Shown here in pieces: positions 47,531-48,805 of a stretch of 64,000 nt of DNA. The notes below the pieces were generated by a model. It had not been told where the DNA came from. It saw only the letters and a list, made by a program, of their open reading frames with translations, and did not search any database. A program made the translations under genes and the position numbers. Within the stretch, counting starts at the first letter, position 1. Every line of letters starts with the position of its first letter. Where the stretch lies: assembly GCF_032050975.1 (NCBI RefSeq), contig NZ_CP116967.1:372001-436000 (forward strand), in the 5' to 3' direction. The stretch comes from Candidatus Nitrospira allomarina. Lineage in GTDB: Bacteria; Nitrospirota; Nitrospiria; Nitrospirales; UBA8639.

Positions 47531-48087
47531 TCACATATTTCAACGATGATAGCATCCCGACATTCCCAAGCCACCTCAAGAAAGGTGGAGAATTTCTCGA
47601 AATGCTAAATTAATACTAGGTATTTCTACACCACAATCTGTTGTTGTTTCCTCACGGTATGCTTCAAACGACGAGTTGTTTCTTACCATACTTCCGAACA
47701 GTAAATCCTCATCAATAAATGATATCACCACATTATTGACATTTAATATAGAAATTTCTTTCAAGTCTCCAAAACCAAACAGCAAAACAAATTTCCCCAC
47801 CACGTTACAATACCTAGTTAATAAGGCACACTTATGAATCGTAAGGATGAATAACATACCAAATATTGATTTTATAAAATCATAAGGCACTAAGTTTAGG
47901 CTTTCATTTTAAACATGTAATTTTATAATTATCTCTTCACAAACATGCCATTGATTTACAAACAACCAATCGTAATTTGCATATTTGTTTGAAGTCATCC
48001 TTTAAAAATAAAAATTTAAAGCTTGCTTGTTGACTTTGCTTTAAAACACGAATAGAATGAGACTCAACATATGGTGGAGTTTGCGAA
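47531..48087. other. AT-rich gap
   Basis: About 550 bases visibly richer in A/T than the surroundings, with many T/A runs around 47880-48070. One minus-strand open frame (47576-47890, 104 codons) reads V-V-G-K-F-V-L-L-F-G-F-G-D-L-K-E-I; it has no ribosome site, and I do not call it. The base composition suggests acquired DNA or a curved regulatory region upstream of the HARE-HTH gene. Confidence 0.45.
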
Positions 48088-48612
48088 ATGGAGGACCAAA
48101 ATGACCAGCTTAAAGATATCAGCGATGGGCTGGAGCAGCGCATCAGTGTTTATGAGCGCAAACTCAAGGATCTCCAAAAAAAACGGGAGCAGGTAGGTGA
48201 GGAAATTGCGACGGTTGAGAAATATTTGGAGTTGGCAAAAACCCTCTATCGCGTCGAAGCTGACAAAGCGAAGCTGGCGAGTCTCTCAAGCCAGATCTTC
48301 TCGGAAAAAGAGGGACATCTGTCCTCAGCCGACACGGATGTCGCGTCTAAGTCGAGGGAAATTCTTCTAGGCCGAAGCAAATATGTGGGCATGAGCGTCC
48401 CTGATGCAGTGTACATGGTTCTCCAGGAGGTAGGTCGTCCATTGCACGCCAAAGAACTTTTTCAACGCCTCAAAGAAGGCGGGATGCCCATCAGGGGAAA
48501 AACTCCAGTCACCTCTGTCGCTACATCCTTAAAAAGGGACCCTCGTTTTCGTAAAGTGGGGCCCAATACATTTGAAGTCAATCACGAAAAATCTTTAACC
48601 AAAGCCGTCTGA
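48088..48612 (+). CDS. Coiled-coil protein with C-terminal HARE-HTH domain
   Basis: 174 residues. An N-terminal coiled coil of about 65 residues (L-E-Q-R-I-S-V-Y-E-R-K-L-K-D-L-Q) is followed by a linker. The HARE-HTH winged helix spans about 100-164: M-S-V-P-D-A-V-Y-M-V-L-Q-E-V-G-R-P-L-H-A-K-E-L, then F-R-K-V-G-P-N-T-F-E-V. This fold occurs in restriction, chromatin and RNA polymerase delta factors and is proposed to bind DNA or sense modified DNA. No restriction enzyme is attached. GTTTGCGAA precedes the ATG, which has GGTGGAG nearby. Confidence 0.82.
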   Translation: MEDQNDQLKDISDGLEQRISVYERKLKDLQKKREQVGEEIATVEKYLELAKTLYRVEADKAKLASLSSQIFSEKEGHLSSADTDVASKSREILLGRSKYVGMSVPDAVYMVLQEVGRPLHAKELFQRLKEGGMPIRGKTPVTSVATSLKRDPRFRKVGPNTFEVNHEKSLTKAV

Positions 48613-48658
48613 TCCGCATGACGGACATGATTGTATGATCTGAAAGGGGGTGAGTGAA

Positions 48659-48745
48659 TTGGCAGCAACGAAAAAGAAAGCCGCTCCAAAGAAAAAGGCC
48701 GCGGCCGCAAAACCCAAAGCAAAAGCAAAAACCAAGAAGAAGTAG
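48659..48745 (+). CDS. 28-residue Lys/Ala/Pro-rich histone-tail-like peptide
   Basis: TTG 48659 follows AAAGGGGG with eight bases between. The product consists almost entirely of Lys, Ala and Pro, starting A-A-T-K-K-K-A-A-P-K-K-K-A-A-A and ending K-A-K-T-K-K-K. This composition is that of histone H1 C-terminal tails and of bacterial Hc1/AlgP-like DNA-binding peptides. A clean terminator follows in 24 bases. The HARE-HTH gene ends 46 bases upstream, so both are probably one transcript. DNA binding is inferred from charge only. Confidence 0.6.
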   Translation: MAATKKKAAPKKKAAAAKPKAKAKTKKK

Positions 48746-48768
48746 CTGTAGATCCCACCTGCAGTGCC

Positions 48769-48805
48769 ACCGGGAGTGGGGCCACCCACTCCCGGTGTGT
48801 TTTTC
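48769..48805 (+). terminator. Intrinsic terminator
   Basis: ACCGGGAGTGGG (48769-48780) pairs with CCCACTCCCGGT (48785-48796) around a four-base loop, followed by GTGTTTTT. It ends the HARE-HTH plus peptide transcript. Confidence 0.85.

Follow-up and report, generated by a model that had tools for sequence, protein, structure and literature searches.

What does a 28-residue Lys/Ala/Pro peptide do directly behind a HARE-HTH gene, and does it form a two-part DNA-binding system with the winged-helix protein, as a first reading of this sequence had proposed? We addressed this question for a 64-kb window (the whole stretch of DNA analyzed) from the 4.55-Mb single-contig genome of a member of the order Nitrospirales. 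We then extended the analysis to related genomes across the phylum Nitrospirota.

A two-gene operon with strong expression signals

The sequence-only reading had described a HARE-HTH gene followed by a 28-residue Lys/Ala/Pro peptide on a good ribosome site and a terminator. All of these elements were recovered at 48088–48797, with a promoter upstream:

48019–48041, no strand assigned: putative operator, half-sites AAGCTTGCTT (48019–48028) and TGCTT (48037–48041) flanking the –35 box
48030–48058, + strand: sigma70-like promoter TTGACT-17-TAGAAT, TTGAC being also found in the HARE promoters of relatives
48088–48612, + strand: HARE-HTH (winged-helix) gene with a coiled coil, 174 aa (Pfam, AF2, Foldseek)
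48642–48653, + strand: extended Shine-Dalgarno AAAGGGGGTGAG of the peptide gene
48659–48745, + strand: Lys/Ala/Pro peptide gene, 28 aa, TTG start, frame LAATKKKAAPKKKAAAAKPKAKAKTKKK
48768–48797, + strand: terminator hairpin of 13 bp, followed by a T-run

Both genes are co-oriented, and the peptide gene begins with GAAAGGGGGTGAGTGAA-TTG, 46 bases past the HARE stop, behind a near-perfect ribosome site. An in-frame GTG at 48650 is an unlikely start because it falls inside this ribosome site. The peptide is composed of 49% K, 32% A, 7% P, and 7% T. When both strands of the whole window were filtered for Lys/Ala-type open reading frames (ORFs) preceded by a Shine-Dalgarno, the peptide was returned along with one other short frame, VRSSPQKTRR, which is unlike it. 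Being near-unique in this filter and conserved across the phylum (see below), the frame is, on comparative grounds, more than a product of chance. Pfam and NCBIfam searches with the window peptide yielded zero matches up to E = 1, i.e., it does not fall into a curated family of bacterial H1-like nucleoid proteins, and an Rfam search with 1451 bases spanning the pair likewise yielded zero matches up to E = 1. Upstream of the promoter, ~500 bases of AT-rich intergenic sequence (47576–48060) contain no clear gene, and the gene 3′ of the pair encodes an inositol monophosphatase.

The HARE-HTH domain (Pfam PF05066) was assigned to residues 102–163 of the first protein (E = 2.1e-8; 34.9 bits versus a curated cut-off of 25.9). 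In its AF2 model (mean pLDDT 79.5), a long N-terminal helix spans residues 2–74 (~73 residues), with pLDDT >90 over residues 11–60. Foldseek matches to the model were RNAP delta, Rok, and ZBP1 Z-alpha, all with E > 0.001, the nearest match to the HARE domain being RNAP delta (E = 6e-3, weak). Since the HARE domain here is C-terminal and net positive (+8) and an acidic tail is absent, the protein does not qualify as an RNA polymerase delta subunit. A PDB sequence search with the HARE alignment returned coiled-coil matches only (best E 0.021), and a plasmid search with P0001 returned zero matches.

The peptide accompanies HARE across the phylum

A search of 59 genomes from the genus, family, and order recovered HARE relatives in 52. 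Phylum-wide, 109 of 295 genomes gave a match, which reached E ≤ 1e-50 in 103; three weak partial matches from other families (L182–L184), non-orthologues, were left out of the HARE tally. Translating downstream of these homologues, we found a K/A peptide 3′ of the full-length HARE gene in 84/84 genomes, with N-runs inside the peptide in two (G020, G032). By our own tally, these comprise 50 genomes from the genus, family, and order set plus 19 from the phylum-wide set and a further 15, two genomes with a broken HARE (G301, G185) being left out. The peptide was also present at 80/80 named loci kept from 177 relatives (L106 and L109 cut by N-runs), many of them from the same assemblies as the 84 genomes, such that the two sets overlap. 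HARE homologues consistently lacking the peptide, or an unconserved frame, would have told against the proposed pair; all 84 genomes instead keep it.

Automated peptide calling skipped several loci, either for a distance >300 bases or for N-runs (L025, L028, L061, L109), along with L027, L039, L048, L051, and L290/L291. These were read by eye, L061 and L109 being the same genes as L028. The HARE-to-peptide distance is 222–352 bases in two loci (L025, L033), while in eight deeper relatives the peptide ribosome site overlaps the end of HARE, the HARE stop being the TGA of GGTGA (the overlap in L168 and L169 was read with the upstream frame). A phylum-wide peptide pattern hit 159 of 295 genomes, a figure we do not use as a peptide count because the pattern also matches ordinary proteins (L214, L221–L226). 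A looser pattern, applied to nine genomes, hit mostly chance frames, the real ones being L245 and the controls only. Overall, comparison of these genomes indicates that the K/A peptide is kept over most Nitrospirota checked, far beyond the genus.

Peptide genes carry signs of translation and protein-level selection

The identical peptide LATKKAAKKKKK is specified by 12 distinct DNAs, whose seven variable columns all fall on third codon positions (p about 1e-4). When the 28-aa members are compared, codon positions 1, 2, and 3 account for 7, 8, and 22 variable columns, respectively. Asp and Glu are absent from all 68 distinct HARE-linked peptides (those without N-runs). Expression signals recur as well: GGAGGTGA, GGGGGTGA, or a longer form lies 5′ of 91 of the 93 distinct peptide genes, and 82 of the 93 start with TTG. 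Downstream, a stem of at least 10 bp follows 79 of 90 distinct genes, a clear T-run being present in only 52. Judged by these substitution patterns and signals, the peptide is translated and under selection at the protein level. It is Lys/Ala/Pro-rich, acid-free, and variable in repeats, as bacterial H1-like nucleoid proteins are.

Peptides are 11 to about 130 residues long overall, often 11 to 30; those following HARE span 11–113 aa. Long forms of 90–116 aa, some with a few Cys, resemble classical H1-like proteins (L347, L355, L358, L362, L368, L370), which suggests gene growth by repeat expansion. Separately, tandem peptide genes, two or three per operon and each preceded by an extended ribosome site of its own, were observed at eight loci (L287, L308, L316, L318, L324, L328, L375, L376). 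We also noted a K/R/A-rich protein of ~95 aa starting with MATKKAASRKAASHSGG (L200; G287:C1:4327032-4327060, – strand), histone-like in composition, which is not acid-free and has no HARE neighbor.

The peptide persists without HARE

The peptide is, however, not bound to HARE as the sequence-only reading had supposed: it survives HARE loss, occurs as a solo paralogue, and has an unrelated winged-helix partner elsewhere in the phylum. HARE is broken or missing in six Nitrospirales genomes (G185, G191, G197, G229, G234, G287) that retain both peptide and terminator. HARE remnants could be recognized in G185 (1.9e-18), G234 (2e-6), and G197 and G229 (both about 1e-4), the match being marginal in G191 and undetected in G287. 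Pattern and HARE searches found neither HARE nor peptide in three other Nitrospirales genomes (G207, G232, G276). The window's own genome encodes a solo paralogue (G000:C1:1065122-1065244, – strand; loci L053, L206) with LATKKKAPAKKK repeats, the same ribosome-site leader, its own hairpin, and no adjoining winged-helix gene. Two relatives (G010, G014) share this paralogue, and it alone was matched by a composite K/A query, in this genus only. From these genomes, HARE appears dispensable for peptide retention.

A second, unrelated winged-helix partner

In many loci, the neighbor of the peptide is a convergent lpxC (Pfam LpxC, 2.2e-107), and because lpxC so often adjoins the peptide, we sampled the lpxC flank in 40 genomes without an intact HARE. 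A K/A peptide was found in 25 of them (including G226, G228, and G188), and in all but G204 it is preceded by a gene for a ~180-aa protein that combines an ArsR-like winged helix with an MNT-like domain (wHTH-MNT). Among the 15 flanks without a peptide, five belong to genomes with a wHTH-MNT elsewhere (G063, G080, G095, G109, G202); three of these were read downstream, and all three have the peptide there. Ten of the 40 genomes showed neither peptide nor wHTH-MNT at the lpxC flank, i.e., the peptide is not universal.

Across the phylum, wHTH-MNT was detected in 110 and HARE (E ≤ 1e-50) in 103 of 295 genomes, with zero overlap; G190, G206, and G266 carry wHTH-MNT plus a weak partial HARE match not counted as an orthologue. 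We covered 103 of the 110 wHTH-MNT genomes (leaving out G073, G080, G088, G095, G101, G117, and G127, and including L290, L291, G085, and G098 from separate locus readings), and a peptide lies 3′ of wHTH-MNT in 100 of these 103, with G079 doubtful (150 aa with Glu and Cys). At the three misses (G113, G292, G307), the contig or sequence stretch ends within 300–542 bases.

The wHTH-MNT protein models as an ArsR-type repressor fold joined to a degenerate nucleotidyltransferase (MNT) fold (mean pLDDT 86; Foldseek matches AntR, SqrR, CadC, and the MNT antitoxins 7bxo and 8xeo), and both it and the HARE protein are net basic. Relative to GS...D.D, which we take to be the intact MNT catalytic motif, most Nitrospirota copies are degraded to GP..VD: among 19 aligned proteins, two (L267, L282) have G-S, and the second Asp occurs in none of the 18 motifs inspected. 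Plasmid homologues from other phyla (14 records, about 33% identity) kept GS..SDID intact in the three read, and are overlapped or abutted at their 3′ end by a second gene (about 145 codons), one such ORF being without a Pfam match. This two-gene layout resembles HEPN/MNT modules, and the K/A peptide is absent from the three plasmid loci read. Viral contigs, searched with the HARE and wHTH-MNT alignments, contained zero relatives. Given the loss of the MNT motif in Nitrospirota, these comparisons suggest that wHTH-MNT is a regulator of toxin-antitoxin descent. In one family (f14; L219, L220), an extra ~150-aa ORF, HEPN-like in appearance and without a Pfam match, sits between wHTH-MNT and peptide and may be a leftover of the former wHTH-MNT partner. 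Four other families (f17, f18, f25, f38) have a gap of about 450–550 bases at this position, i.e., room for an ORF.

Promoter motifs change with the partner

We compared chosen representative promoters, rather than all loci, for the two partner types. In 28 HARE promoters, TGCTT/AAGCA half-sites occur 86 times versus 22.7 ± 4.5 in shuffles, with at least two copies in 25 of the 28, whereas in 35 wHTH-MNT promoters they are at background (9 versus 6.3 ± 2.6). The latter are instead enriched in AACGAT/ATCGTT (27 versus 2.3), TGTTCT/AGAACA (28 versus 3.4), and the palindrome GAACNNNNGTTC (8 versus 0.1), which number 0, 1, and 0 in the HARE promoters. TTGACA was present in 35/35 wHTH-MNT upstream regions, and TTGAC in 28/28 HARE upstream regions. 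The z-scores of these motifs overstate the evidence because the promoters come from related genomes and do not count as independent samples; repeated half-sites within one promoter help in part. The motif nonetheless changes with the partner, which would fit each winged-helix protein regulating its own operon.

A constant polycation with a proposed exchangeable regulator

Comparison across genomes establishes the gene order, the conservation and translation of the peptide, the exchange of its partner with the accompanying motif change, and the survival of the peptide without a partner. Our preferred reading, to which we assign a probability of about 0.5, is a small operon in which the Lys/Ala polycation would be the constant component, and the exchangeable winged-helix gene would encode an autoregulator and possibly a partner of the peptide. 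Specifically, the near-consensus promoter and extended Shine-Dalgarno would give a high peptide output, while a winged-helix dimer would bind the repeated half-sites over or near its own promoter and thereby set the amount of peptide. The peptide is a small polycation that probably binds nucleic acid or another polyanion. It would coat or bridge this polyanion, as H1-like tails do, with DNA predicted as the most likely target and RNA or polyphosphate as alternatives. Some points run against this scheme: at the salt level of the cell, a peptide of 12 residues binds nucleic acid only weakly unless it is abundant; RNAP delta, the nearest (weak) fold match of HARE, binds polymerase rather than DNA; and the peptide is missing from the ten lpxC flanks noted above.

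Of the two-part system originally proposed, the anatomy stands, i.e., a winged helix followed by an H1-tail-like peptide on its own tiny gene, while the exclusive tie of the peptide to HARE does not. A stricter version, in which either winged-helix protein provides DNA specificity and the peptide a non-specific tail within one complex, as an H1 split over two genes, could account for the same gene order being found phylum-wide although the two partners are unrelated, and for the overlap, in deep relatives, between the peptide Shine-Dalgarno and the stop of HARE. RNAP delta also offers a precedent, its HARE-like domain and a positive region lying in one chain (PMC7749165). We nevertheless regard such a complex as unlikely: the peptide occurs without an intact HARE in six genomes, without wHTH-MNT in G204, and as a solo paralogue in the window's genome, and none of the loci read contained a winged helix fused to a Lys/Ala tail. 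That both partners are net basic, i.e., like-charged with the peptide, further disfavors a charge-driven complex. Similarly improbable in our view is a small basic accessory peptide that has the ribosome, RNA, or polyphosphate, and not DNA, as its target, with the winged-helix gene acting only as regulator. The extreme Shine-Dalgarno complementarity, tiny size, and lack of acidic residues would suit such a role, as would the association of AlgP, similar in composition, with polyphosphate granules (PMC9239181), but the peptides share no motif beyond composition, and a tenfold length range would be unusual for a defined ribosomal site.

A toxin-antitoxin pair, with a winged-helix antitoxin and a cationic peptide toxin, is very improbable. 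The two-gene operon with its likely autoregulator, and the plasmid wHTH-MNT homologues in two-gene modules with an intact nucleotidyltransferase motif, point that way, yet the peptide outlasts HARE, which an unneutralized toxin should not do, the unit lies on the chromosome next to a conserved lpxC, and the three plasmid loci read had no K/A peptide. Hardly any weight goes to a leader peptide whose lysine codons would respond to the availability of lysine and, by way of the terminator, attenuate a gene further downstream. The short lysine-rich frame directly 5′ of a terminator recalls such a device, but frames reach 113 to 127 aa, and there is no conserved regulated downstream gene: it is clade-dependent, an inositol monophosphatase in the window and, in other genomes, mostly a convergent lpxC on the other strand.

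Returning to the constant polycation with its proposed exchangeable regulator, a broader and more tentative extension, less likely in our estimate than the operon reading itself, is that Nitrospirota possess a chromatin-like form of charge control not known elsewhere. Here, a free histone-tail-like peptide, as short as 11–12 residues, would be supplied in regulated amounts by a winged-helix regulator exchanged at least once (HARE-HTH versus a wHTH-MNT of toxin-antitoxin descent), with the peptide, ribosome site, terminator, and often chromosomal place kept. That so small a gene (11 to 30 codons) is kept over most of the phylum, persists where one regulator is lost, and also occurs with a second makes a strong case for a functional peptide below the usual gene-calling size. 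Its place behind either of two winged-helix genes points to an overlooked, regulated, positively charged peptide. If DNA binding holds true, these loci would provide a natural minimal test of an H1-like tail that lacks any globular domain, in organisms with a central part in nitrification, and the partner swap with its matching motif change yields a directly testable regulator-operator prediction.

Comparison with known systems

The sequence-only reading knew of no description of this pairing, and our search of open-licence papers agrees, finding neither such a peptide nor such a system in Nitrospirota. Individual components do have known counterparts. The HARE protein shares a HARE-like fold (Foldseek, E > 0.001) with the N-terminal part of the RNA polymerase delta subunit (RpoE of Firmicutes). 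RNAP delta combines a HARE-like domain and a following positively charged region in one chain, and its C-terminal region is acidic (net –47; PMC7749165). In the window protein, by contrast, the coiled coil is N-terminal and the HARE domain C-terminal, an acidic tail is absent, and the lysines lie on a separate gene. The alternative partner shares its ArsR-like wHTH and MNT fold with HEPN/MNT toxin-antitoxin modules that have a wHTH-MNT regulator, but differs from these by its degraded MNT motif and by the K/A peptide directly 3′ in most families, where no toxin gene was seen in between.

For the peptide itself, likenesses lie with the H1-like proteins AlgP and PhaF of Pseudomonas and Hc2 of Chlamydia, in Lys/Ala/Pro composition and repeat-driven length variation (PhaF as described in PMC9239181); to our knowledge, the tails of these three also lack acidic residues. 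AlgP is the closest described protein in composition. This H1-like Lys/Ala/Pro protein is reported to bind DNA and polyphosphate granules, its tail preceded by a 124-aa N-terminal domain (PMC9239181). Compared with AlgP, PhaF, and Hc2, which are larger, the tail alone constitutes the gene in Nitrospirota, down to 11–12 residues, and within its operon this gene follows a dedicated winged-helix gene. H1-like Lys/Ala/Pro proteins are thus already known; what appears new from these genome comparisons is an H1-like polycation as a free-standing tiny gene behind an exchangeable winged-helix gene.
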